Part shown: piece by piece, positions 4,253 through 41,009 of the stretch
How positions within the stretch are numbered: position 1 is the stretch's first letter
Layout of the letters: each line of letters starts with the position of its first letter
IMG/VR virus record: IMGVR_UViG_3300023118_000013
Location: 1 to 45,011 of that record
Direction: 5' to 3' (one strand)
Source: a virus
DNA: 45,011 nucleotides
Notes under the pieces: generated by a model
Database searches by the model: none
What the model saw: the letters and a program-made list of their open reading frames with translations, nothing else
What the model was told of the DNA's origin: nothing
Translations under genes and position numbers: made by a program

Positions 4253-4660
4253 ATGACTGCCCGAAAGCCCGACAAGCTAAAATTGGTTGAGGGAACGTTC
4301 CGCAAGGACCGTGCGGTCGAAGGCGTGGAATTTGACGTCATCGCCGACATCCCCGACGCTCCGGACTGGTTGCCCAATGCGCACGCCGTGAAAGAGTGGG
4401 ACCGTCTGGCGCCTATTCTCCACAAGACCGGTTTGCTCACCCAGGCAGGCCTGTCTGCCCTCGGCGCGCTCTGCGCGGTGCATGGCGATATCGTGGACCA
4501 GTGGGCCCGCCGCATTTCTCCCAACGCCGCCACGCTTGCGCAGTACCGCGCCCTCGTGAACGACTTCGGCCTGACTCCCGTTGCGCAAGGCAAGGTGCGC
4601 CCCATTGGCCAAGAAAAGCCCAAGAACAAATTCTCCGACAACGGCAAGCGGTCCGCGTAA
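4253..4660 (+). CDS. terS: Terminase small subunit, P27 family
   Basis: Recognises the packaging site and recruits the large subunit. The 135-residue product begins MTARKPDKLKLVEGTFRKDR, the typical start of P27-type small terminases, then has the helical middle (PDWLPNAHAVKEWDRLAPIL) and a second helix block ending in a basic tail. I chose ATG 4253 because AGGA lies eight bases upstream, while an ATG at 4244 has no proper spacing. The repeat array lies about 200 bp upstream. The end overlaps the large-subunit gene by 56 bases. Confidence 0.88.
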   Translation: MTARKPDKLKLVEGTFRKDRAVEGVEFDVIADIPDAPDWLPNAHAVKEWDRLAPILHKTGLLTQAGLSALGALCAVHGDIVDQWARRISPNAATLAQYRALVNDFGLTPVAQGKVRPIGQEKPKNKFSDNGKRSA

Positions 4661-6347
4661 TTTCGTCCAGATCGCGGACGACTATGCCCGATCGGTTGTC
4701 GCGGATAAAAAAGGTGCGTTCACGGGCAAGCTGATCCGATCGGCGGCCAAGCGCTATCTGGCGGACCGTAAGCGCGCCGCCACCAAAGCCTGCGCCTTCG
4801 TGTTCGACGAGTGGCACGCGGCGGATCCGTGCAGCTTCATCGAGAAGCTGCCCTACGTGGAAGGCACCTGGGATACGGAGGAAATGGTCCTCCATCCTTC
4901 CCAGATTTGGTTCCTGGTCCAGTTGTTCGGCTTCCGGTCGCGCAAGAACGGCGCGCGCCGGTTCACCAGCGCCCTGCTGGCCGTGGCCCGCAAGAATGGC
5001 AAGTCGAGTCTGGCCGCGGCTATCCTGCTGTACTGCCTATGCTGCGAGGACGAACCCGGCGCGCAGATCGTGACCGCGGCGACCACGTACGACCAGGCCA
5101 GCATCATCCTGAAGATCGCGCAGAAGATCGCGCACCGCAGCCCGGAAATGGTCGACGCATTCGGGCTCGAGGTCATGGCCAAGGTCATCACGCGCTTGGA
5201 GATCGGCGCGTCGTTCAAGGCGGTACACGCCAAGGCGTCCACGCAGGATGGCCTCAATCCCAGCCATACGGGCCTGGACGAGATCCACGCCCACAAGACG
5301 GCGGACCTCCTGAACGTCCTGCAGTCCGCCGCCGGCGCGCGCCGCAGCCCCCTGTGGCTGTTCACCACGACCGAGGGATACGAGAACCCCGGCCCGTGGG
5401 CGGATATCCGGCGCTACGCCAAGCAGTTGTTGACCGGCGTTTTGGAAATGACCGACCACGACCATTTCCTGGTCGCCTTCTACGCGGTCGACGACGAGGA
5501 CAAGGAATTCGACCCGACCTGCTGGCCCAAGGCCAACCCGCTGTGGGATGTGAGCGAGCCGCTCCGGGACGCGATCGCCAAGGAAGCGGCCGAGGCCAAG
5601 CAGATGCCGGGCAAGCTCGGCGAGTTCAAGATCAAGCGGCTCAACCGCCGGGCCGCTGCGGCCCATGCGTGGGTCGACGTGATGAAATGGAAGGCGTGCA
5701 ACGGTCCGGTCGACTTGGAAAAGCTCCGAGGCCAGCCGTGCTGGGGCGGCCTGGACCTAGCCAGCACAACCGATTTGACCAGCTTTCGGCTGACGTGGTT
5801 GGTTGACGGGCAGTATTTCACTCACGCTTGGCGGTGGGTTCCGTCCGACGCCGTAGCTCAGCGGACCGAACGCGGTACCACGCCTTACGCCGCTTGGGTA
5901 ACTTCCGGCTACTTGAAACAGACCGAAGGCAACGTGACCGATTACACGGTGGTGAGAAAGGATATTCTGGCCGCGCTCGAGGAGTTCCGACCGTCCAAGG
6001 TGGGGTTTGACTCATGGAACGCCCAGACTCTGGTAAACCAGCTAGTCGAGGATGACGTGCCAGGCGTGGAGTTCGTCCAGTTCATCCAAGGCACCCGGTC
6101 CTACCACCCGGCCGTACAGGCGGCCGAGGCGGCGTACATGGGCGGCAAGCTATCCCATGGCGGCGACCCCGTGCTGGCCTGGTGCGCCGCCAACGTGGTC
6201 ATGAAGCAGGACGACAACCTCAATAATGCGCCGTCCAAAAAGCGGTCGGCAGAGAAGATCGATGACTTCTGCGCGTTCCTGATGTCGCTGGGGGTCGGTC
6301 TGGAGGCCGGCGAGGCCGAGCCGGAATATAAATTGCACATTTTCTGA
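4605..6347 (+). CDS. terL: Terminase large subunit (ATPase/nuclease)
   Basis: Motor that drives DNA into the prohead and cuts it. The product of about 580 residues shows an N-terminal ATPase with a Walker A-like VARKNGKSS (near 127-135), Walker B GLDEIHAH (near 223-230) and coupling motif WLFTTTEG (near 251-258). The C-terminal RNase H-like nuclease has GGLDLAST, KVGFDSWNA and KIDDFCAF carrying the three acidic positions. This is the Terminase_1 type that pairs with P27. Start choice: TTG 4605 has AAGGTG eight bases upstream. Confidence 0.92.
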   Translation: MAKKSPRTNSPTTASGPRNFVQIADDYARSVVADKKGAFTGKLIRSAAKRYLADRKRAATKACAFVFDEWHAADPCSFIEKLPYVEGTWDTEEMVLHPSQIWFLVQLFGFRSRKNGARRFTSALLAVARKNGKSSLAAAILLYCLCCEDEPGAQIVTAATTYDQASIILKIAQKIAHRSPEMVDAFGLEVMAKVITRLEIGASFKAVHAKASTQDGLNPSHTGLDEIHAHKTADLLNVLQSAAGARRSPLWLFTTTEGYENPGPWADIRRYAKQLLTGVLEMTDHDHFLVAFYAVDDEDKEFDPTCWPKANPLWDVSEPLRDAIAKEAAEAKQMPGKLGEFKIKRLNRRAAAAHAWVDVMKWKACNGPVDLEKLRGQPCWGGLDLASTTDLTSFRLTWLVDGQYFTHAWRWVPSDAVAQRTERGTTPYAAWVTSGYLKQTEGNVTDYTVVRKDILAALEEFRPSKVGFDSWNAQTLVNQLVEDDVPGVEFVQFIQGTRSYHPAVQAAEAAYMGGKLSHGGDPVLAWCAANVVMKQDDNLNNAPSKKRSAEKIDDFCAFLMSLGVGLEAGEAEPEYKLHIF

Positions 6348-23284: not shown

Positions 23285-23982
23285 TGCCTCGGCCGGCATT
23301 CATCGGTGCGATCGACGCGGGCCATGCCGGACCGCCGCCGGGCGTCGCCTACGCTTCCCTGCTGCACCTCGACGGGGCGGATGGCAGCACCACGTTTACG
23401 GACTCGCAGGGGCGGACGTGGGCGCGAAATGGCACACACACCAAGATCTCGACGGCGCAGAGCAAGTTCGGCGGCGCGTCGATGAAGGTGGGCAATGGTG
23501 GCGAGACAGGTGGCAGCACGGCCAATGGCATCAAGACGAACAACACCTCCGACCTGGTGTTCGGTACGGGCGCCTGGACGATCGAGTGGCAGCAGTTCTG
23601 GTCCAGTTTCGCTGATTTCCAGACGGTGCTGGATAAGGGTGGAACAGGCAGCGGCGCGCTGTTGCTTCAGACATCTTCTGGCAGCGGGCAGATTTCGGTC
23701 TACGTCAATGGAGCGACGGTCCTTGCGGAGCCGACGGCTCCGGCCACGGGTGTGTGGCTACAGTACCAGCTGAAGTACGACGGCACCGTGTTGACCCTCA
23801 CCCGGGAGGGCGCGACGCCAGTGACGCAGACCCTATCCATCAATCTAACGAATACCGCGCAATTTAGCTGGGGTGCGTACGCAGATGGGACCTACGCCAC
23901 CGACTCCTACCTCGACGAGTGCCGGATTACCAAGGGCACCGCGCTTCCCTACGCTACGCAGACTGCGCCTTGGCCAGACTGA
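23284..23982 (+). CDS. Concanavalin/LamG-like fibre tip protein
   Basis: The 232-residue product has ASLLHLDGADGSTTFTDSQG, FGGASMKVGNGG, GTGAWTIEWQQFW and YLDECRITKGTALPYA. These are the lamin-G/concanavalin jelly-roll marks seen in phage receptor-binding proteins that recognise sugars. It is the last gene of the structural operon. Its TGA abuts, with no gap, the stop codon of the leftward polymerase gene (TGATCA at 23980-23985). Confidence 0.78.
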   Translation: MPRPAFIGAIDAGHAGPPPGVAYASLLHLDGADGSTTFTDSQGRTWARNGTHTKISTAQSKFGGASMKVGNGGETGGSTANGIKTNNTSDLVFGTGAWTIEWQQFWSSFADFQTVLDKGGTGSGALLLQTSSGSGQISVYVNGATVLAEPTAPATGVWLQYQLKYDGTVLTLTREGATPVTQTLSINLTNTAQFSWGAYADGTYATDSYLDECRITKGTALPYATQTAPWPD

Positions 23983-25035
23983 TCACTTCCGATACCGCCG
24001 GCCGCGCCACGCACCGGCCGCGCGGATCGGCCAGTCGGAGGCCCAAGGCGGCATGCGATTCATAATGGCCACGTACTCCTCGCACGAGCCATACCCGATC
24101 GGTACCTCGCTCACGTTCTCGTCGTACACGTGCTGCACGATCGGGTAGCCTGCGGCTTCGAGGTTCACCTGGCTGTGGCGGAGGATCCGGTTCGCACTGG
24201 CCTGCACGACATTCTCCAGCAGCTTGCCGGAGTAGGTATTCATCCGCTGCCAGCCCGGTGCGCCCATCTTGGGGTTGGTGTTCCACCCCTCGTACGATAG
24301 CTCCAGACCGCGCCAGGTTTGCGCCGACTGCTTGAGGCGGGGCGCGTGGTATACAAGGTACGATCGGTCCAACAGCGTGCAATACAGCACGTCTCCGTCG
24401 ACTACATAGGACAGGCCCGAGTCCGTGCCGTCCATCCGCATGACCGGAAAGGTCGTACCGGGCTGCAGCACGGCGCGCACCGCCATCCCTTCCAAGCCGT
24501 GAAGGTAGGGTTGCCAGTTGAGCTTCTGGCCGCCGCCGAGGAACACGATAGCCGGGCTGGCTTTGCGCCAAGCAAGGATGATTTCCTTGGCCTCCGCCTC
24601 GGTCCCTTCGAAGCCCATCGCCATAAGCGCGCCGATCCAGCCAAGGAAGCCCAAGGCGAGCTCGGTCACCTTGCCTTTCTTGCGCAGCGGGTGATGCGAG
24701 CCGCCATGCAGCTTCGGGTAGTCGAGGATCGTCTCGAGAGGAATGCCGAAGGTCTGCGCGGCGGACGCTTCGTAAATCTTACCGTGCCCACGGAACACTT
24801 CGATCCGCCATGACTCATTAGCCAGCATGGCAGTCACGACGGCTTCAATGGCCGAATAGTCCGCACAGATCAACTCATGCCTTGGAGCCGCCACGAACAG
24901 CCCGCGCAAGCTGCCCGACACGGCCAGCATCGCATCACCGAACATGAGCTCCACCGTGGCAAGGTCACGCGTGCCGATGGCGGTCAGCGCGTCCTCGGCG
25001 GCCTCTGCGCCCCACTCTACTTTTCGGGCGGTCAT
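23983..25035 (-). CDS. DNA polymerase, family A, catalytic (palm/fingers) half
   Basis: The 350-residue product holds all three polymerase motifs of family A: motif A CADYSAIEA (Asp59), motif B RKKGKVTELALGFLG (118-133), and motif C HVYDENVSEV (Asp305, Glu306), where Tyr replaces the usual His before the Asp. It lacks the exonuclease and thumb, which are encoded at 27052-28314. Chosen start ATG 25035 overlaps the upstream TGA (ATGA) and gives MTARKVEWGAE. The same nine codons occur a second time at 25808-25834. It should copy phage DNA, presumably in complex with the other half. Confidence 0.85.
   Translation of the reverse strand: MTARKVEWGAEAAEDALTAIGTRDLATVELMFGDAMLAVSGSLRGLFVAAPRHELICADYSAIEAVVTAMLANESWRIEVFRGHGKIYEASAAQTFGIPLETILDYPKLHGGSHHPLRKKGKVTELALGFLGWIGALMAMGFEGTEAEAKEIILAWRKASPAIVFLGGGQKLNWQPYLHGLEGMAVRAVLQPGTTFPVMRMDGTDSGLSYVVDGDVLYCTLLDRSYLVYHAPRLKQSAQTWRGLELSYEGWNTNPKMGAPGWQRMNTYSGKLLENVVQASANRILRHSQVNLEAAGYPIVQHVYDENVSEVPIGYGSCEEYVAIMNRMPPWASDWPIRAAGAWRGRRYRK
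25009..25034 (-). repeat. 26-bp repeat, copy in the functional polymerase gene start
   Basis: Encodes the codons for TARKVEWG just after the start of the catalytic half. It matches 25808-25833 at 24 of 26 bases. Both differences fall on third codon positions and leave Ala and Lys unchanged. Confidence 0.9.
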
Positions 25036-25127
25036 ATAACGTGGGTGAGGGCTAAGAAAAAAGCCCATGCGACGAGGGCGACTAGTATCACCACAATGTG
25101 AAAAAGTCTAAAGTCCTCGTTTTTCAC
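25032..25127 (-). CDS. Single-span membrane peptide, 31 aa
   Basis: GTG 25127 overlaps the preceding TGA, and the TGA overlaps the polymerase ATG, so it is coupled on both sides. The product is MKNEDFRLF followed by one long hydrophobic segment (IVVILVALVAWAFFLALT). It is too short for family recognition. It could be an inhibitor or membrane-acting peptide of the early type. Confidence 0.6.
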   Translation of the reverse strand: MKNEDFRLFHIVVILVALVAWAFFLALTHVI

Positions 25128-25396
25128 CCGACGTTCTCGCCTTGATTGGCGGGACCCCAAACACCCAGGCCGTACGGCCAGTTACCCGAGGCGGAATGAG
25201 GAAAAAACTCTTTGACGACTTCGTTCATGCTTTGTTTGACGACGTCGAGCATTCCTTCCCCTGAGTGAAAAAGATGTGCGCAAGGCGCGCTGCGACGTAT
25301 GATCTCAACCATCATCTCTTCCGCGGTTTCTTTACGCACCGCGTCAACAGGCAGAAGGTCGCCGGCATCATTTTTAACGTAGTACTGAGTGCTCAA
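25124..25396 (-). CDS. Hypothetical protein, 90 aa
   Basis: TTG 25396 overlaps the preceding stop (TTGA). The product begins MSTQYYVKNDAGDLLPVDAV, then has two acidic helices (KETAEEMMVEIIRRSAP) and a Gly/Pro/Trp-rich tail. No membrane span or metal motif. Second to last of the small-gene group between the polymerase halves. Function unknown. Confidence 0.6.
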   Translation of the reverse strand: MSTQYYVKNDAGDLLPVDAVRKETAEEMMVEIIRRSAPCAHLFHSGEGMLDVVKQSMNEVVKEFFPHSASGNWPYGLGVWGPANQGENVG

Positions 25397-25614
25397 TTGG
25401 ATTCTCCGATGAGTATTTTTGCGTATAGGGGAAGCACCACGTAGGTTTCTTTATCCCACTCGGCCATTCGTTTAGCGGCTTCCGATGCTTCTTCCCAGCT
25501 ACGGAAAAAGCACTCGACCTCTTTCCACACAAGCTCTCCGTCGCTTTTCTGAAGCATGTACGCTACGGCACGGAGAGTGTAAGGGCTGAGCGGACGGTCA
25601 TTGGTATCACGCAT
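25393..25614 (-). CDS. Hypothetical protein, 73 aa
   Basis: The product from ATG 25614 is MRDTNDRPLSPYTLRAVAYM followed by a WKEVECFFRSWEEASEAAKR section resembling small surface-mixed alpha/beta proteins. A TTG three codons upstream is an alternative start. The ATG lies within the end of the 33-residue membrane gene. No family recognised. Confidence 0.6.
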   Translation of the reverse strand: MRDTNDRPLSPYTLRAVAYMLQKSDGELVWKEVECFFRSWEEASEAAKRMAEWDKETYVVLPLYAKILIGESN

Positions 25615-25708
25615 GACAAACAACCCACAATGCTATGCCTGCCGTACAAACCACGGTTCCTAGCACTGTAGTGACGGCCAAAATATTGTCGTGAATGAAA
25701 TTAATCAT
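25607..25708 (-). CDS. Single-span membrane peptide, 33 aa
   Basis: The product is MINFIHDN then a hydrophobic stretch (ILAVTTVLGTVVCTAGIALW) ending WVVCHA. GGAGAG stands seven bases before ATG 25708, a good ribosome site. It is the first gene after the operator-promoter at 25734-25762. Function unknown. Confidence 0.6.
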   Translation of the reverse strand: MINFIHDNILAVTTVLGTVVCTAGIALWVVCHA

Positions 25709-25733
25709 GACTGACTCTCCTCAAGGTGCAACG

Positions 25734-25762
25734 AGCGTAACGCATACTGACGAAGCTGTCAA
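25734..25762 (-). promoter_or_regulatory. Early promoter with operator dyad, second small-gene group
   Basis: On the minus strand, TTGACAGCTTCGTCAG (25762-25747) carries the -35 box TTGACA. A weak -10, TACGCT, follows after 17 bp (25739-25734). It matches the shared early element at 15 of 16 bases. It stands 26 bp upstream of the first ATG of the group. Confidence 0.65.
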
Positions 25763-25774
25763 TGCCGGCGCCTT

Positions 25775-25834
25775 TCAAAAAGTACGCGACGAGGGATCGG
25801 CAGAAAAGCCCCACTCTACCTTTCGAGCGGTCAC
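25775..25834 (-). pseudogene. Remnant of the polymerase catalytic-half start (19 codons)
   Basis: GTG 25834 overlaps the stop of the preceding gene (GTGA) and opens a frame reading MTARKVEWG, the same as the catalytic half, then FSADPSSRTF and a stop. The first 26 bases match 25009-25034 with only two synonymous differences. It looks like the original start of the polymerase half, left behind when the next group of genes was inserted or exchanged. Confidence 0.75.
25808..25833 (-). repeat. 26-bp repeat, remnant copy
   Basis: Second copy of 25009-25034 in the same orientation, 799 bp away. Identity ends abruptly after the GGC codon. It brackets, with the other copy, four tiny genes and their promoter. 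Confidence 0.9.
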
Positions 25835-26058
25835 TCAACTAACTCCATATCGGTGGCGAAAGGAAGCTGCACAGAACCCATGTAACAATATTTGCCGAAC
25901 GTGTTCATAACGTCCCACAGTGGCCACTCGGACCAGCCGTCCACTTCCTTCGGCATAGCCCGGTATCGTTCCGGGAGTTCGTTTAGCTGCTTCTGAAACT
26001 CGGCACGGCCGAAGTCAGTCAAGCGAATGCGGACCTTACGATTGAGGTTGAGGATCAT
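25831..26058 (-). CDS. Hypothetical phage protein, 75 aa
   Basis: From ATG 26058 (ATGA overlap) the product begins MILNLNRKVRIRLTDFGRAE, a start seen in several small phage proteins, then LPERYRAMPKEVDGWSEWPL and a tail ending FATDMELVE. Longer frames starting upstream would run through the previous gene and have no ribosome site. The compact basic then acidic make-up suggests a soluble protein. Function unknown. Confidence 0.65.
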   Translation of the reverse strand: MILNLNRKVRIRLTDFGRAEFQKQLNELPERYRAMPKEVDGWSEWPLWDVMNTFGKYCYMGSVQLPFATDMELVE

Positions 26059-26234
26059 TCCAGCGTCTCCAAGTATTGCTCCGCCTCGGCCCGTGTCGTA
26101 AAGGCACGGTACGGCGGAAAGTCCGTCCAGGGATGCTTGCGTGACCGACGCATCTGGAGCACGTAGCGCCACCCGTCACGCGTGGGCGCGATGATCACTT
26201 TGTACTCGGTGCGGGTTGTGAGGGCGGTGGTCAC
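26055..26234 (-). CDS. Hypothetical protein, 59 aa
   Basis: GTG 26234 overlaps the preceding TGA, and the TGA overlaps the next ATG. The product begins MTTALTTRTEYKVIIAPTRD, continues GWRYVLQMRRSRKHPWTDFP and ends with an acidic helix (RAEAEQYLETLE). The pattern, beta strands then a helix, resembles small DUF-type phage proteins. No catalytic residues are obvious. Confidence 0.6.
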   Translation of the reverse strand: MTTALTTRTEYKVIIAPTRDGWRYVLQMRRSRKHPWTDFPPYRAFTTRAEAEQYLETLE

Positions 26235-26434
26235 GGGCCGATCGCTCGGTAAGTGTTTTCAGTTGCGCCGTTGTGTTCAAGCGCTGCGGCCAGGCGTTCC
26301 ACAGCGGCTACGACTTTGGCGTCGCCCAACCAATAGAACGAAGCGACTTGCATCTGAAAAAGAAGGTCTTTGGCCGCCACGTCGACTTCACGACGTTTGG
26401 CCGCTTCAAGCAGACTTTTGACAGCGCTGTGCAT
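26231..26434 (-). CDS. Hypothetical helical protein, 67 aa
   Basis: ATG 26434 overlaps the preceding TAA (TAATG). The product is almost entirely helical (SLLEAAKRREVDVAAKDLLF, then ERLAAALEHNGATENTYRAI). No membrane segment. Encoded in a coupled leftward group. Function unknown. Confidence 0.6.
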   Translation of the reverse strand: MHSAVKSLLEAAKRREVDVAAKDLLFQMQVASFYWLGDAKVVAAVERLAAALEHNGATENTYRAIGP

Positions 26435-26664
26435 TACGCGTAACTCCTCTGGAATTTGGGGCCGCGACGATACGTTTTAGCAGAACCGTCATACACGAGG
26501 TTGTCTGGAGCTGCACTCATGTAAGTTTTCAAATCGTCGCTAGCCTGAGGCATGCTGACGCCGTAATAGTCCATGACGGCGGAGCGGTTCACGTGTCCAT
26601 ACTGGTGGACGAGAAAATCAATGAAGCGCAGGCGCTGCTCAACGGCGTACGACCGGCGCGCCAT
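26434..26664 (-). CDS. Winged-helix DNA-binding protein, WYL-type N-terminal domain only
   Basis: The 76-residue product (MARRSYAVEQRLRFIDFLVH, then YGHVNRSAVMDYYGVSMPQA, then APDNLVYDGSAKTYRR) matches the winged helix that precedes WYL domains in bacterial regulators, with the GxxNRS..DYFGVS recognition-helix pattern and the closing Y-D-x-S-A-K-x-Y wing. The WYL ligand domain is absent. The ATG overlaps the upstream TAA. It follows the promoter at 26859-26887 closely, so it may control early transcription. Confidence 0.8.
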   Translation of the reverse strand: MARRSYAVEQRLRFIDFLVHQYGHVNRSAVMDYYGVSMPQASDDLKTYMSAAPDNLVYDGSAKTYRRGPKFQRSYA

Positions 26665-26834
26665 TACGGCGACACCGGCTTCGTGGAAACGCTCTGGCCG
26701 TCCTCGAATGCGTTCCGGCACTGCTCTCCCAAGACGCGACGCTCGGTCTGGTCGTCGTGGTCCATCACGTAATCGGCCACAAGGGCGGGAACAACGCCAG
26801 GACGGTTCTTAACGATAACGTGGATTTTCAGCAT
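26664..26834 (-). CDS. Hypothetical protein, 56 aa
   Basis: Frame from ATG 26834, with GGAGA eight bases upstream, to TAA at 26664, which overlaps the next ATG. The product is MLKIHVIVKNRPGVVPALVA followed by DYVMDHDDQTERRVLGEQCR and a short Ser/Pro tail. It is the first gene after the operator-promoter. No family recognised. Confidence 0.6.
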   Translation of the reverse strand: MLKIHVIVKNRPGVVPALVADYVMDHDDQTERRVLGEQCRNAFEDGQSVSTKPVSP

Positions 26835-26858
26835 CAGTATTCTCCGGTAGGTGGAATA

Positions 26859-26887
26859 ACTTTACCCATCTGTGACGAAGCTGTCAA
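26859..26887 (-). promoter_or_regulatory. Early promoter with operator dyad, first small-gene group
   Basis: On the minus strand, TTGACAGCTTCGTCAC (26887-26872) supplies the -35 box. The -10 TAAAGT (26864-26859) follows after exactly 17 bp. The element matches the shared sequence at 15 of 16 bases. It overlaps the stop codon of the 54-residue membrane gene upstream. Confidence 0.75.
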
Positions 26888-27048
26888 GACCATTTAGAGC
26901 TAATTTCCAAAAGAAATTCTTCAATCTTCTTCAGGGCCTTTTTCTCTCGATACAGAAAGTAAAATTTTAATGAAACCTGCAAAACTGCCAGAAAGACCAG
27001 CTCGACGAGATACACGCGCAGATACCAATCCGCCTCAGATGTAGCCAT
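26884..27048 (-). CDS. Single-span membrane protein, 54 aa
   Basis: ATG 27048 lies three bases after the stop of the polymerase N-terminal half. The product begins MATSEADWYLRVYLVELVFL, has a hydrophobic segment near residues 10-34, then a charged tail (REKKALKKIEEFLLEIS). Its TGA is inside the -35 box of the next promoter. Function unknown. Confidence 0.6.
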   Translation of the reverse strand: MATSEADWYLRVYLVELVFLAVLQVSLKFYFLYREKKALKKIEEFLLEISSKWS

Positions 27049-27051
27049 CTC

Positions 27052-28314
27052 TTACTCCACGCTAGAGCCGCACCACGGGCACGCCGTGAGCGACATTGAG
27101 AAATGGTGCGAGCAGTCGTCGCACCGGTAGACGTACACGCCAGAACTATTGGGCAGATTGGTGGGCTGCGGACCGGAGCCGGTCGGGCGTCCCGTTCGCG
27201 CGCCATGGAAGGTATAGAGGTCGTGCAGCCGTCCATCGGCGGCCAACTGGTTGCGAATAGCGAACACCTTCTTGACCGATGCACTGCCCACGAAAGAGCG
27301 TATTTGCAACGCGCGGCGCGGAGCAGCGGGCAACTCGCCGGAAAGCGCCGCCTGCACGTTCTCGTCGTCCATGCTGGCCATCTCAACCCCGTGGTGCTCA
27401 CGTAGCCACGCCGCGAGCCGTTGCGTCTGGCTCGCCTTCGTGACCACGCCGCCCGTGAGTGCCGCCAGCTCCGCGTTGTACTGCCGGTGCGCCTGCTCGA
27501 TGATGGCGATGCACGCGTGCAGGCCGTCCTGGTCGATGGCGATGCCGCGCTGGTTAATGGCCTGGTCGATGAACCAGTATTCCTGCTCCTCTGGCGAGAG
27601 GTCCGGCACCTTGGCGCTCACCTCCGATTCGGCCACGATGTCCCGGGCGTTGTAGGCGTACAGGCGCGGGCCGTCCACCGGGTCGTCTTCGGGCCGGATG
27701 CGCTGGCGCGGGTCGGCCTTGGTCGGGCTGCGCGGCTGCGAGAAGCGCTGCAGCAGGCGCGTGCCGTCCTTATCCTTGCCGTGCTCCACGGCCAGCACCT
27801 CGCCCACCTTGTCCAGCGCGGGCGGCAAGGCCCAGGCGCGGCCCTTGGCCTGCGCGCACCGTACCTGACGTAGCGGTAGCGGCGGGGCGCCATAGCGCTT
27901 GACCATCTGGCGCCACACCCACATCTCGAACCCCGCGTTGAACGCCTCGATCAGCCCGCCGGCGGCAATGTGGTCGTAGAGGTCTTGCGGCACGGGCATG
28001 GCCGGCGTCCAGAGCTTCGGGCCGCTGCCGTCCTTCAGGTTGTATGCCAGGCTCAGAATCTCAAAGGTGGAGTGCTGCGTGTAGGCCGCGGCGCCCACCA
28101 CCGCAATGCCGCTGCGGGCATTCTCGGCCGCCACTTTCCACCGGCCGCCATTGGCACGTCCCGTGGCACTCGTGCTGGGAAGCACCCACACGTACCCGGC
28201 CTCCGAGTAGGTCTCGAAGTCCATGTCGGGCAGCACGGTGCTATAGGAGCGCCCGGCGCGCAGGCGGTAGCCGGCGGGAAGATCGTGCAGGGTGGGCGGT
28301 GGTGGAAGGGTCAC
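27052..28314 (-). CDS. DNA polymerase, family A, exonuclease/thumb half
   Basis: The 420-residue product holds the 3'-5' exonuclease start DMDFETYSEAG (Asp32, Glu34), the region HIAAGGLIEAFNAGFEMWVW, YAYNARDIVAES (further acidic residues), then the thumb/linker RSFVGSASVKKV and TFHGARTGRPTGSGPQPTNL. It ends in a zinc-ribbon-like pair, CDDC (398-401) and CPWC (412-415), five residues before the stop. Motifs A, B and C are missing and lie in the gene at 23983-25035. GTG 28314 overlaps the previous TGA. A longer frame to ATG 28338 is possible but uncoupled. Confidence 0.85.
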   Translation of the reverse strand: MTLPPPPTLHDLPAGYRLRAGRSYSTVLPDMDFETYSEAGYVWVLPSTSATGRANGGRWKVAAENARSGIAVVGAAAYTQHSTFEILSLAYNLKDGSGPKLWTPAMPVPQDLYDHIAAGGLIEAFNAGFEMWVWRQMVKRYGAPPLPLRQVRCAQAKGRAWALPPALDKVGEVLAVEHGKDKDGTRLLQRFSQPRSPTKADPRQRIRPEDDPVDGPRLYAYNARDIVAESEVSAKVPDLSPEEQEYWFIDQAINQRGIAIDQDGLHACIAIIEQAHRQYNAELAALTGGVVTKASQTQRLAAWLREHHGVEMASMDDENVQAALSGELPAAPRRALQIRSFVGSASVKKVFAIRNQLAADGRLHDLYTFHGARTGRPTGSGPQPTNLPNSSGVYVYRCDDCSHHFSMSLTACPWCGSSVE

Positions 28315-28787
28315 GCAAACGTCTCCCACCACTGCCACAGGTTAACGATCGGAACGTCCAGTGCGGTAGCGAACTGCACGCAATTGCAGGTACCACCGAG
28401 CGAGCCGTCCCATAGCGCAATGACGCCACTGGCGCGCCGGACCATGTATTTGTTGCGTTCCATCATCGCTTTTACCGAATAGCGCGGAGACACTTCGATT
28501 ACCTTGGTTGCGCGTGACAACAGCGTACGGTACCTCTCTTGCGAGTCACGCGGCCACTTGGACTCTTGACCCGGAAACGGCACGGCGGCCTCCCATGGAA
28601 TGCCGAGGTCAACGCAAGCCTGTGCGCACGCTTGGTCCCAGCCTTGTGCCATGCCTGAGACGAACAGCGCGGGCCGGTGCTGGCGCAAGTACCACGCTGC
28701 GAAGTCTTCCACCTTGGCCTGCACGCGCGGGTCGTAGCCTCCCAGTTTGTCCGGCCTATGGCCGGTAGCGCACCAGGTGATCGTCAC
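28311..28787 (-). CDS. DprA/YspA-like Rossmann (SLOG/DUF1273-type) protein
   Basis: The 158-residue product has WCATGHRPDKLGGYDP (the GHRP..L motif), LFVSGMAQGWDQACAQACVD (the SGMA.G.D nucleotide-binding loop), MMERNKYMVRRASGVIALWD and GSLGGTCNCVQFA. These are the signatures of the YspA/DUF1273 branch of SLOG proteins, which bind nucleotide-derived ligands. GTG 28787 and both ends overlap neighbours. Role in phages unknown. Position beside the polymerase suggests nucleic-acid or signalling function. Confidence 0.75.
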   Translation of the reverse strand: MTITWCATGHRPDKLGGYDPRVQAKVEDFAAWYLRQHRPALFVSGMAQGWDQACAQACVDLGIPWEAAVPFPGQESKWPRDSQERYRTLLSRATKVIEVSPRYSVKAMMERNKYMVRRASGVIALWDGSLGGTCNCVQFATALDVPIVNLWQWWETFA

Positions 28788-29703: not shown

Positions 29704-30537
29704 TTACGCGGCGGTCACGTACTGATGCTGGAGCGCAATCTCCAGCGACCAGCCCGGGGAGGCGATCAGCGACTCGACGCTCGTCGCGCCCTTGCTGATG
29801 GCCAGCTCGGTCAGACGGTACGTGGGGCCCGGCACGTCCAGCGGGGCCGTGTGCGGCACGGTGGGGGTCGGAGCAGGCGGAGCGGACATGGGCGGTGTGG
29901 GGGGTGTCAGCCCACCCTGCGGCGTGAGCGTGCCACCGGGCGGCAGGGCCGCGCCGCCGAAGCCCGCCGCGGACGCATCGGCCGTAAAGGTAATTTCCGG
30001 ACCGTGCCCTGCGTGCGCCACAAAGTCGTGGTTGACGTAGATGCCCGGGCTGTCACCGGTATTGCCCTTCACGCTGCCGAGCACCTGGATGTAATGGCCC
30101 GGCTTGATCGAGTCGGCCGGGACCGGCGCGCTGCCGTCCGAGTTGACCGTCTTGACCGCGAAGCGAGAGGAGAACCAGACGATCCAGCAGCCGGCGTAGT
30201 TGGGATTGTCGGACGGCTTCTTCCCTTTCTTGTTCGGCACCTGGCTATCGCCGTCCGTCACCTTCCACGAGAAGGTCGGCGCGAGGCTCTGGCCCTGCGG
30301 AAAGTCACGCGTGGCCACGGCGACCATCTGCGCGCCCCACGGTTCGGCCTTCCAATCGACGCCCGGACGCTTGGCGATGGCCATGCCGAACGAGTAGTCC
30401 ATTACGGCGCTGCCATCCGCGTTCTTGACGGGCTGACCGTTGGAGGTAACCGGCTGCCCGGTGGTGAGCGAGCCGCCCACGAATCGGCCGGACAGCTTTG
30501 GGCCGGGGAACAGTACGGAGGTTGCTTCTTTGCTCAT
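29704..30537 (-). CDS. Single-stranded DNA-binding-like protein (putative)
   Basis: The 277-residue product has a beta-rich N-terminal domain with YAGCWIVWFSSRFAVKTVNS, DSIKPGHYIQVLGSVKGNTG and GIYVNHDFVAHAGHGPEITF, the pattern of phage OB-fold SSB-like proteins encoded next to RecB-type nucleases. A Pro/Gly-rich linker (residues 195-235) and a short helical C-terminus follow, unlike bacterial SSB with its acidic tip. Encoded immediately after the DUF2800 nuclease (ATGA overlap). The SSB role is inferred from context and pattern. Confidence 0.6.
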   Translation of the reverse strand: MSKEATSVLFPGPKLSGRFVGGSLTTGQPVTSNGQPVKNADGSAVMDYSFGMAIAKRPGVDWKAEPWGAQMVAVATRDFPQGQSLAPTFSWKVTDGDSQVPNKKGKKPSDNPNYAGCWIVWFSSRFAVKTVNSDGSAPVPADSIKPGHYIQVLGSVKGNTGDSPGIYVNHDFVAHAGHGPEITFTADASAAGFGGAALPPGGTLTPQGGLTPPTPPMSAPPAPTPTVPHTAPLDVPGPTYRLTELAISKGATSVESLIASPGWSLEIALQHQYVTAA

Positions 30538-31676
30538 TGCTTGAATGCCTTTGCGACTTGGGTGTAATTGATCGGTGCCAACTTGAGCGCACCGGGCGGA
30601 CGTTGAGAGTATTGCGATATGACAGCTTCGTCAATACCGAGTTTGATGGCCTGCGTCGGCGTGATGCATTCCGGCTTGGACACATCCTTGCCGTACATGA
30701 GTTGCATGGCCGCGATGACCTCGGCGGCAGGCTTGCTCCACTTGAGGCGCGACTGGCCGCGCTCCATGTGCCAGCCCGGTACGGACAGCCCCGTGCCGAT
30801 TTGTGCCGCTGCGACAGCCTCCAGGCCGGCGATCCGTGCAGAGACCATCTGGTCGATGCGCTTCAACATGGTCAACTCCGCACCGACAACGGCCGGCGGC
30901 GGATCAAACGGCGTATTGCCGCCCACGTAGTCCGCCAATTGCGAGACGTAACGTTGGTTGGCCTCGCATCCGACGATGGCGCTGCAATTCTTGCACTGGA
31001 CAGGCCCTGCGATGGTCGGCGCGTTGTGGTCCATGGCCCGAGCCTCCCGGTCGGACCAGTAGTTGAAGTGGGCGCGCAGGTCGGTCAGCTTGCCGCACCA
31101 GCGGCGGATCGGACCGAGGCGGCCATACTCGCGCGGCTGCACGATGGTGAACTCGAACGTCCATTCCTGGTCGTCCTCGGGCCAGCCGCCCAGATCCGTC
31201 TCGATCACGCCTGCCAGGTACTCGATGCCTTGCGGGTTCTCGTGTGCCTCGACGTAACCATGGCCGTACTTGTAGTCCCAGACACGGATGCGCTTGCGGT
31301 AGCGGTCAACGTAACGGGCGTCGGGCGTTCCGTAGCACTCAGCGTGAATGAGGTTGGGCGCGGCTACCGGTCGCTCAACGACGAGAGCCTCCCACACCTC
31401 GACCGCCATGCCGATGCGGTCCATCACGTCTTTTGCAACCATCAAGGCGCCGTCTATCATGTCCTGATCGGAAGGTATGCCGTTGGGCAGGATCGTGCCG
31501 ACCGGAGAGTAGCTGGCGTATGTGAGATACTCGGCCATCACGTGGTGCGCCGCAGTGCCCTCCGCAGCTTCCGGCGTCTCCACCTGCGGCACGCGTGCCT
31601 CGAGCGCACGGCTACCCGGGCAGCGACCGCGCCGGAACGCGCCGCTCGGTGCGAGTGGGGCGTGCGTGCCGGTCAT
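30534..31676 (-). CDS. PD-(D/E)XK nuclease, DUF2800 (RecB/Cas4-like)
   Basis: The 380-residue product begins MTGTHAPLAPSGAFRRGRCP and GTAAHHVMAEYL (the His/Cys-bearing N-terminus of DUF2800). The nuclease core is ECYGTPDARYVDRYRKRIRV with Asp, then WDYKYGHGYVEAHENPQ with the D-x-K and downstream Gln. Later Cys (CKNCSAIVGC) could hold an iron-sulfur cluster as in Cas4/AddB. Such enzymes act in phage recombination with the neighbouring SSB-like protein. ATGA overlaps on both sides. Confidence 0.8.
   Translation of the reverse strand: MTGTHAPLAPSGAFRRGRCPGSRALEARVPQVETPEAAEGTAAHHVMAEYLTYASYSPVGTILPNGIPSDQDMIDGALMVAKDVMDRIGMAVEVWEALVVERPVAAPNLIHAECYGTPDARYVDRYRKRIRVWDYKYGHGYVEAHENPQGIEYLAGVIETDLGGWPEDDQEWTFEFTIVQPREYGRLGPIRRWCGKLTDLRAHFNYWSDREARAMDHNAPTIAGPVQCKNCSAIVGCEANQRYVSQLADYVGGNTPFDPPPAVVGAELTMLKRIDQMVSARIAGLEAVAAAQIGTGLSVPGWHMERGQSRLKWSKPAAEVIAAMQLMYGKDVSKPECITPTQAIKLGIDEAVISQYSQRPPGALKLAPINYTQVAKAFKQ
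30619..30634. promoter_or_regulatory. Operator-like element inside the DUF2800 gene
   Basis: ATGACAGCTTCGTCAA matches the shared early element at 15 of 16 bases. It lies in coding sequence (codons for IDEAV on the minus strand). On the minus strand TTGACG could serve as -35 with TACTCT after 17 bp, about 80 bp upstream of the SSB-like start. Use as a promoter or a repressor site is uncertain. Confidence 0.4.
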
Positions 31677-38639: not shown

Positions 38640-41009
38640 ATGCAGTCTCTTCCTCCCGCGCTGCAACCGCTCGCAGCGTACAGGCAGTTCATCGCCTACC
38701 AGTTGGTGCCCGACACGTCACGTCCGGGCAAGACGTTCAAGTACCCGATCAATATCGCCACCGGCCGTAAGCACGACCCGACCGACGCGTCCGCTTGGCA
38801 TAGTCACGATGAAGTGAGCGCGTGGGTCGAGTCGCGGGCGGACCACGGCTGCGCGTTTGTGTTCACAGAGGAAGACCCGTTCTTCTTTCTGGACATTGAC
38901 GGCCAATGGATTGACGGCATGTGGTCGCCGCTGGCGCTCCAGCTGGCCACCCGCCTCAATGGCGTAGCCGTGGAGGTGAGCCAGTCCCATACCGGCCTGC
39001 ACCTGATCGGCCAGTACCGGGGCGCGCGGCCCGTGCATGGCTGCAAACCGCCCAAGGCCCGGCAGCTTCCGCTGGAGCTCTACACGGCGGACCGCTTTGT
39101 CGCGCTGACCGGTCTGTCCGCCGCCGGTGACGCCAGCGTGGATGCCACTGAGGCGCTGCTGTCCATCATTGGCGACTACTTCCCGCCGAGCCTGGGCGCC
39201 GAGCTGGAGGATGGTTGGTGGTCCGAGGAGCCCGTGCCGGAATGGACCGGGTACGCCGACGATGAGGAAATGCTCCGCGTGGCCATGCTGTCCACCAGTG
39301 CCGCCGCGGCCTTTGGTGGCAAGGCGACTTTCGCGGATCTGTGGCACGCCGACGAGGCCAAGCTGGCCGCCACGTACCCGGGCGATAATGGCCGGTTGTG
39401 GGACGGCAACAGCGCCGATATGGCCCTGGCGCAGCACCTGGCCTTCCACACGGGCAAGAATGCGCAGCGCATGCTCGAGCTGATGCCCCGCTCCGCGCTG
39501 GCGCGTGACAAGTGGGAGCGGCCCGACTACCTGCCCCGGACCATCCGCAAGGCCTGTGCGCAACAGGTGGACGTGTTCAAGCGGCGCGAGGTGCAGCCAT
39601 TGGACCGTGAGCTGCCCATCGTGGCCACGCCGGCTGCCGCGCGCCTCTTGGCGCGTCGCATCCAGGGCGAGACGTTCCTGGGCGCCGACCAGCAGACGAC
39701 CCTCTTTGAAGGATGCTGCTACGTGGAGGACCAGCACAAGGTACTCACGCCGGACGGCGCGTTGCTGGCGCCCGGGCAGTTCCAGGTGCGCTTCGGCGGG
39801 TTCACGTTCGCCATGGACCCGGAAGGTAAGCGCATGGTCCGCAACGCCTGGGAGTGCTTCACGGAGAGCCAGCTGCTCCAGTTCCCCAAGGCGGACACCG
39901 CGGCCTTCCGGCCCGATCGGCCACTGGGGGAGATTGTGGAGGAGGGCGGCTATCGACGGGTCAATTCTTACGTGGAGGTTAGCGTGCCGCGCCAGGCGGG
40001 CGATGCGAGCCGATTCTGGCGGCACCTTGAGCTCATCCTGCCCGACCCGCGCGACCGGCAAATCCTGGTCAGCTACATGGCCGCCTGCGTGCAGTACAAG
40101 GGCGTCAAGTTCCAGTGGGCGCCGCTGGTCATCGGGCCGCCCGGCAACGGCAAGACCCTGCTCACCCGGTGCGTAGCCAACGCTATCGGAAAGCGGTACG
40201 TGCATTGGCCCAAGGCGTCCAAGCTGGCCAAGCAGTTCAACGGCTGGATGGTGGGCAAGCTCTTCTACGGCGTGGAGGACATCTACACGGCGGACGCCAA
40301 GGTCGACGTGATCGAGGAGCTTAAGCCCATGATCACCGGTGGCGACGGTCTGGAAATCGAGTTCAAGGGGGTGGATCAGGCCAGCGCGGATATCTGCGGC
40401 AACTTCATGTTCAATTCCAACCACGATAACGGTATCCGCAAGACCAAGGACGACCGCCGGTTCGCCATGTTCTTCACGGCCCAGGAGTTGCGGGGATGGG
40501 ACGTGGAGCGTAGCGAGATGCGCGGATCCTACTTCCCCGACCTGTACGACTGGCTGCGCGCGGAGGGCTACGCCATCGTGGCCGAGATGCTGCACACTTA
40601 CGCCATCCCGGACGAATTTAATCCGGCCAAGGGCTGCCACCGCGCGCCGCGCACCTCCACCACGGACCGTGCCATCCACGCGGGGATGGGCCGCGCCGAG
40701 CAGGAGATACAGGACCGCATCGAGCAGGACGCGCCGGGCTTCCGCGGTGGCTGGGTCAGCAGTAGCGCCATGCGCCAACTCTTTGCCGACGAGCGGATCA
40801 CCATGCCTCGGTCACGCTACAAGGATGTGATGCAGGAACTGGGCTATGAGTTGCACCCGCACCTCACGGATGGCCGAGTGAACCAGCTGGTCAGCCCGGA
40901 CAACAACAAGCCGCGCCTGTACGTGCGGGCCGGTAGCGGTCTGGAGCACATCACGGACCCCAAGCTGGTGGCCGAGGCGTACCAGGCGGCGCAATTGGGG
41001 ATGGGGTGA
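38640..41009 (+). CDS. Primase-helicase (primase-polymerase N-terminus, D5/DUF5906-like helicase)
   Basis: The 789-residue product begins with an archaeo-eukaryotic primase-like domain (FFFLDIDGQWIDGMWSPLAL, acidic pair near 84-86, and VEVSQSHTGLHLIGQY). After a linker comes an SF3-like helicase with Walker A GPPGNGKT near 499-506, a GVEDIYTADAKVDVIEEL region as Walker B, and MFNSNHDNGIRKTKDDRRFA sensor/arginine region of DUF5906. It would prime and unwind DNA for the split polymerase. SD-like AGGCAGG lies upstream. Confidence 0.88.
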   Translation: MQSLPPALQPLAAYRQFIAYQLVPDTSRPGKTFKYPINIATGRKHDPTDASAWHSHDEVSAWVESRADHGCAFVFTEEDPFFFLDIDGQWIDGMWSPLALQLATRLNGVAVEVSQSHTGLHLIGQYRGARPVHGCKPPKARQLPLELYTADRFVALTGLSAAGDASVDATEALLSIIGDYFPPSLGAELEDGWWSEEPVPEWTGYADDEEMLRVAMLSTSAAAAFGGKATFADLWHADEAKLAATYPGDNGRLWDGNSADMALAQHLAFHTGKNAQRMLELMPRSALARDKWERPDYLPRTIRKACAQQVDVFKRREVQPLDRELPIVATPAAARLLARRIQGETFLGADQQTTLFEGCCYVEDQHKVLTPDGALLAPGQFQVRFGGFTFAMDPEGKRMVRNAWECFTESQLLQFPKADTAAFRPDRPLGEIVEEGGYRRVNSYVEVSVPRQAGDASRFWRHLELILPDPRDRQILVSYMAACVQYKGVKFQWAPLVIGPPGNGKTLLTRCVANAIGKRYVHWPKASKLAKQFNGWMVGKLFYGVEDIYTADAKVDVIEELKPMITGGDGLEIEFKGVDQASADICGNFMFNSNHDNGIRKTKDDRRFAMFFTAQELRGWDVERSEMRGSYFPDLYDWLRAEGYAIVAEMLHTYAIPDEFNPAKGCHRAPRTSTTDRAIHAGMGRAEQEIQDRIEQDAPGFRGGWVSSSAMRQLFADERITMPRSRYKDVMQELGYELHPHLTDGRVNQLVSPDNNKPRLYVRAGSGLEHITDPKLVAEAYQAAQLGMG

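Follow-up and report, generated by a model that had tools for sequence, protein, structure and literature searches.

Split DNA polymerases of phages

Phage DNA polymerases encoded in two genes, including one of family A, are already known. In the cultured Methylophilales phage MEP401, as also in MEP402, a family A polymerase lies in two open reading frames (ORFs), and that report names an intron as a possible cause (PMC10580990). The T4-type 43A and 43B products of phage 25 were found to co-purify and to be active (PMC2988022), and the polymerase of jumbo phage MIJ3, of the split-intein type, is encoded by two ORFs that flank another gene (PMC6892783). Here we consider a family A DNA polymerase carried as two genes in 45,011 nucleotides of viral DNA (IMG/VR virus record IMGVR_UViG_3300023118_000013, positions 1 to 45,011; the whole stretch is called the window below). 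Judged from sequence, the two genes are likely to encode two subunits of one phage polymerase, at a split point that accepts cassettes of accessory genes. We show that the halves share one ancestry and that polymerases split at the same place occur in other phages.

Two halves of one polymerase

An initial sequence-only reading of the window had proposed a polymerase divided between two genes about 2 kb apart, and both open frames were found where it placed them:

27052-28314, minus strand: N-half of the family A DNA polymerase, with 3'-5' exonuclease, thumb, RTGR...QNLP element and zinc ribbon
25036-27051, minus strand: insert of ten small ORFs, GC content 0.53, several neighbours sharing a four-base stop/start overlap
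23983-25035, minus strand: C-half of the family A DNA polymerase, with motif A (DYSAIE), motif B (RKKGKVTEL) and motif C (YDE)

The frames comprise 421 codons (N-half) and 351 codons (C-half), stops included. The N-half starts with a GTG overlapping the stop of the gene upstream (GTGA) and, as had been read, ends five residues past a zinc-ribbon-like pair (CPWC-GSSVE-stop). The ATG with which the C-half starts, at 25035, shares bases with the stop codon of the small ORF before it (ATGA), and the C-half product begins MTARKVEWGAEAAED. Against the phrog_17 (DNA polymerase) profile the N-half matches positions 675-993 and the C-half positions 995-1232, in order; the rest of the 45,011-base record holds no second phrog_17 match. 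The Pfam DNA_pol_A model scored the C-half at 29.7 bits, under its cut-off of 34.3. The alignment to single-chain polymerases suggested in the same reading was made with 28 such relatives, and the halves tile exactly, the N-half ending in column 575 and the C-half beginning in column 576 with neither gap nor overlap. The junction is a highly variable stretch, preceded by the last cysteine of the zinc ribbon and followed by a conserved Glu-Trp. Key acidic residues are retained in both halves, as claimed: in motifs A, B and C of the C-half, D59, E64, R118, K122, D305 and E306 occur without exception in 17 of 17 sequences including the window, and the same holds in 17 of 17 for the exonuclease residues D32, E34, E130, Y221 and D225 of the N-half.

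The site of the cut was placed on an AlphaFold2 model of a single-chain sister, L197 (mean predicted local distance difference test score, pLDDT, 94.2). The model has the Pol I fold: it aligns with the Pol I of phage G20c (7r0k, 566 residues) and with that of Bacillus (4ez9, 526 residues), in both cases at Z 20.9. The cut maps to L197 residues 454-465, modelled as a coil that follows the ribbon and leads into a helix beginning at residue 468, which bears out the earlier placing of the split at a linker, and it parts the exonuclease, thumb and RTGR...QNLP element from everything from motif A onward. In family A structures generally, a cut at this point crosses the palm instead of separating one domain from another, and the two products would have to fold around one another.

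The insert between the halves

All ten ORFs of the insert, one more than the nine small genes first counted, run in the same direction and measure 54, 56, 95, 67, 59, 75, 33, 73, 90 and 31 amino acids. GC content is 0.64-0.68 in the halves and 0.625 in the whole window. Eight of the ten ORFs tested had no match in Pfam or PADLOC, those to PHROG were weak and all to families of unknown function, and tblastn of all ten against the fetched loci gave none. At the DNA level the only match to phage records was weak, 47 bases long, and fell in two copies of a single record. The sole match of the 95-residue ORF in a viral scan, inside a large repeat protein, was set aside as spurious. Three further features lie within the insert:

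26859-26887, minus strand: promoter-like element 1, TTGACAGCTTCGTCA, with -10-like TAAAGT
25808-25834, minus strand: duplicate C-half start, GTGACCGC...GTGGGGC, overlapping with the 75-residue ORF at its stop (GTGA)
25748-25762, minus strand: promoter-like element 2, TTGACAGCTTCGTCA

The 15-mer TTGACAGCTTCGTCA occurs at nine places in the window with up to three mismatches (1.07 expected), namely 25762(-), 26887(-), 30619(+), 32616(-), 34371(+), 38040(+), 41013(+), 43400(+) and 43611(+). Five copies are exact, two in the insert and three elsewhere; the two promoters initially read in the insert are thus both exact copies of a recurring element. Because the insert carries the phage's own promoter-like 15-mer, it belongs to the phage genome. 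A -35-like hexamer sits within the inverted TGAC-N6-GTCA of the 15-mer, as would look like an operator laid over a promoter. GTAGAGTGG, contained in the first codons of the C-half, recurs downstream of two promoter 15-mers and possibly serves as recombination homology.

The remnant of a polymerase start that had been noticed in the insert was confirmed: 24 of its 27 bases agree with the C-half start, the best of 500 shuffles reaching 19. It opens no polymerase frame, and the two of its differences that lie past the start codon leave the encoded residues unchanged. Most simply, the insert would consist of two cassettes added in turn, or two split alleles would have recombined; the layout would then be promoter, small genes and C-half start, followed by promoter, small genes and C-half start again.

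Split polymerases in related phages

Scans for related polymerases, each returning up to 80 loci, gathered 356 loci, many of them repeating a contig. Of these, 352 were classified: 325 as single-chain, 21 as flagged and six as having one half. Leaving out 14 flagged loci, three duplicates of split loci and the six half-only loci gave 330 assembled polymerases, which reduced at 95% identity to 247 non-redundant representatives. Matches to phage records numbered 1498 and 1461, and five of these records were examined individually.

Five of the 247 representatives are split (the window, L202, L233, L037 and L087), a frequency that describes this sample and is not an estimate for nature. The same linker is interrupted in the window, L202 and L233. 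In L202 the cut holds a gene for 237 amino acids (4282-4995) of the PAPS-reductase family, with SspD as its best PADLOC match (E 2e-40), a possible DNA-sulphur or counter-defence gene; in L233 the whole insert is 230 bases with one ORF (66 amino acids). In L037 and L087 it is the thumb that is interrupted, between helices matching L197 residues 325-343 and 368-381. Their polymerases are 89% identical, and their inserted genes differ, one encoding 83 amino acids and the other a Dam-like methyltransferase (PF05869, just below cut-off), which indicates one split followed by exchange of cargo. Inserted genes are different in all five split polymerases. In all five the second piece begins with an ATGA or GTGA whose start overlaps the preceding gene's stop by four bases, and the window and L233, though not sisters, have C-halves that begin alike (MTARKVEW and MTAREVEW). 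The records of L202, L233, L037 and L087 hold only the two polymerase pieces.

Other candidates were rejected. Flagged stops precede the gene in L059, L082, L114 and L314 and follow it in L339; L132, with an internal in-frame stop, was not counted. L055, L284 and L285 carry an in-frame insert of about 90 amino acids, at the thumb site cut in L037 and L087. Intein-like inserts, their ends judged by eye, account for L107, L255, L291, L294, L325/L326 and L091. Shewanella phage SFCi1 and Pseudomonas phage MR14 each have one long coding sequence, and the break in Vibrio phage VP16T lies only near the C-terminus. Among these, the intein-like inserts sit in conserved motifs (motif B in L107, L255, L291 and L294; RTGR in L325/L326; also L091), and L255 and L091 show, by eye, an HNH-like reading frame in another frame of the insert DNA. 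In VP16T (L360, 214-2543), orf38T and orf37T overlap by four bases, and the VP16C match is one piece.

In a tree of the 110 nearest representatives the window groups with single-chain L197, L266 and L038 and with the thumb-split pair (Shimodaira-Hasegawa-like approximate likelihood ratio test, 100). L202 and L233 are placed away from it. On this tree the linker split requires three changes; the C-half tree needs only two. Separate trees of the N-half and C-half place the window with the same five relatives, indicating that the halves travelled together. Constrained topologies were compared by the approximately unbiased test. One origin for all three linker splits was rejected (p 5.4e-5), as was a single event for the window and L202 alone (p 6.5e-4), but neither a shared event for L202 and L233 (p 0.49) nor a clade uniting the window and the thumb-split pair (p 0.47) was rejected. 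The linker was therefore split on two or more separate occasions and the thumb on at least one other; perhaps all three linker splits and the thumb split arose separately. More speculatively, and with rather less than even confidence, we propose that break points are built into family A phage polymerases at the ribbon-palm linker and at the thumb tip. These would be recurrent landing sites for accessory-gene cassettes, the division of a replicative polymerase into coupled subunits being a repeated way to gain and swap small genes in a conserved replication operon.

Neighbouring genes

The surroundings of the polymerase genes include the following:

28311-28787, minus strand: SLOG-family gene (YpsA/DprA-like), upstream neighbour whose stop overlaps the N-half start
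29704-31676, minus strand: Gp2.5-like single-stranded DNA-binding protein and exonuclease (DUF2800), replication neighbours
38640-41009, plus strand: primase/helicase with an NrS-1 polymerase-like helix-bundle domain and DUF5906

The Gp2.5-like and DUF2800 genes keep the same order in most of the single-chain relatives shown. Further along the plus strand, 43484-43547 matches Proteo-phage-1 RNA (RF03044) at 42.5 bits, against a gathering score of 42.

A probable two-subunit enzyme and its alternatives

We envisage that cassettes of small genes, inserted at a tolerant linker, cut a single polymerase gene. Both halves would remain in one same-strand gene run, the C-half being translated by stop/start coupling to the preceding gene (ATGA) or from promoters brought by the cassettes. 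As the cut crosses the polymerase core downstream of the QNLP element and ahead of motif A, the two polypeptides would have to assemble, with no covalent link, into a proofreading polymerase, and the split site would go on accepting or exchanging accessory cassettes.

Several points weigh against this scheme. The ATGA overlap is common in phage operons and is weak evidence alone, and no Shine-Dalgarno-like stretch is evident upstream of the C-half ATG. The subunit complex and its activity are inferred from the genes. The main sign on the opposing side is the number of unusual residues in the C-half. Of the positions conserved in 95% or more of the other 109 representatives, all 54 in the N-half are kept, and 6 of the 56 in the C-half are changed. 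The latter is the second highest count of the 110, and two of the six departures are private.

Such departures are what a recently broken polymerase gene might show, replication then falling to host polymerases or to the primase/helicase at 38640-41009, whose match to an NrS-1 polymerase domain lends this explanation some substance. We nevertheless regard it as unlikely. The two frames are open over 781 amino acids with their catalytic residues kept, the four other split pairs are likewise intact, and the same primase adjoins single-chain polymerases in some of the 15 fetched loci compared. Moreover, four of the six departures also occur in single-chain L197 or L038, among others, so that they look like lineage traits and not decay; we read the C-half departures as lineage drift and not loss of function. 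Together with the exact tiling and the intact residues, these shared departures favour a two-subunit enzyme over a dead gene, in agreement with the original suggestion.

Still less probable is excision of the insert from the mRNA by an unrecognised self-splicing intron, giving a single chain. Phage polymerase genes with introns do exist, and the possibility is raised for MEP401 by its authors, but positions 23900-28400 gave no match to the known RNA families of Rfam even at E 1. A stop of its own closes the N-half and an ATG of its own opens the C-half; the insert holds promoter-like elements and ten ORFs, and the complete insert of L233 is 230 bases long. Nor were inteins found: no Hint-domain ends lie at the break, where a stop five residues past the ribbon and an ATG start stand instead, and no intein family is among the matches of the halves and insert. 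The earlier impression of an insert free of intein or obvious intron features is in line with these searches of known families.

Slightly lower again we rank separate action of the halves, the N-half as a nuclease or DNA-binding protein and the C-half as a polymerase in its own right. Modelled by itself, the window's C-half gives a confident structure overall (mean pLDDT 86.3), but this half lacks the thumb and the RTGR...QNLP element present in every aligned single-chain relative, and its model has its lowest scores next to the cut, with residues 1-8 and 37-44 falling below 50, whereas block means are 94-97 for the same region near the cut in the L197 model. This weakness fits a missing partner, or may instead stem from a thinner alignment (17 sequences versus 69 for L197). 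An assembly artefact, with the insert or one half coming from another genome, is the most improbable explanation: the record is metagenomic and the insert differs from the window in GC content, but the promoter 15-mer is exact inside and outside the insert, the trees of the halves are congruent and four other contigs carry comparable splits.

Comparison with known split polymerases

Single-chain relatives such as L197, SppYZU01 (Shewanella phage) and Scuro (Acinetobacter phage) have the same exonuclease, thumb, palm and fingers as the window in an uninterrupted gene, and those listed are about 49-63% identical to it in each half. L202, L233, L037 and L087 share with the window the family, the two-gene arrangement and the four-base overlap; their cargo is unrelated, and L037 and L087 differ from it in cut site.

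The MEP401 polymerase resembles that of the window in being of family A, in two ORFs with a small ORF between, and in a cut between the PNLQN element and motif A. It differs in having no ribbon at the cut, which falls right before motif A and not, as in the window, about 50 residues before it. The window and MEP401 gp13/gp15 gave motif-level alignments only (probability about 1%) and no significant pairwise match, and the MEP401 enzyme appears to be of another lineage. The bases of an ATGA overlap are present at gp15, but by the annotated coordinates the stop is out of frame with gp14, and it was not counted.

Like the window, the 43A/43B genes of Aeromonas phages represent a replicative phage polymerase cut into two; they differ in encoding a family B enzyme and in a cut tied to a homing endonuclease gene or untranslated sequence (PMC2988022). 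The MIJ3 polymerase is also of family B and has intein blocks at the break, of which the window has none.

Repeated cutting of a single polymerase family, both at one shared linker and at another site, with cargo exchanged, was not found in print in a search of open-licence literature that covers few subscription journals. Set beside the split polymerases so far described, what is new here is recurrence within this family: a natural series of polymerases divided at one shared position in separate lineages, against which single-chain sisters can be compared. Such a series makes the tolerance of fission, the balance of subunits under coupled translation and the use of a replication gene as a cargo site testable, and offers natural split points for two-part polymerases.

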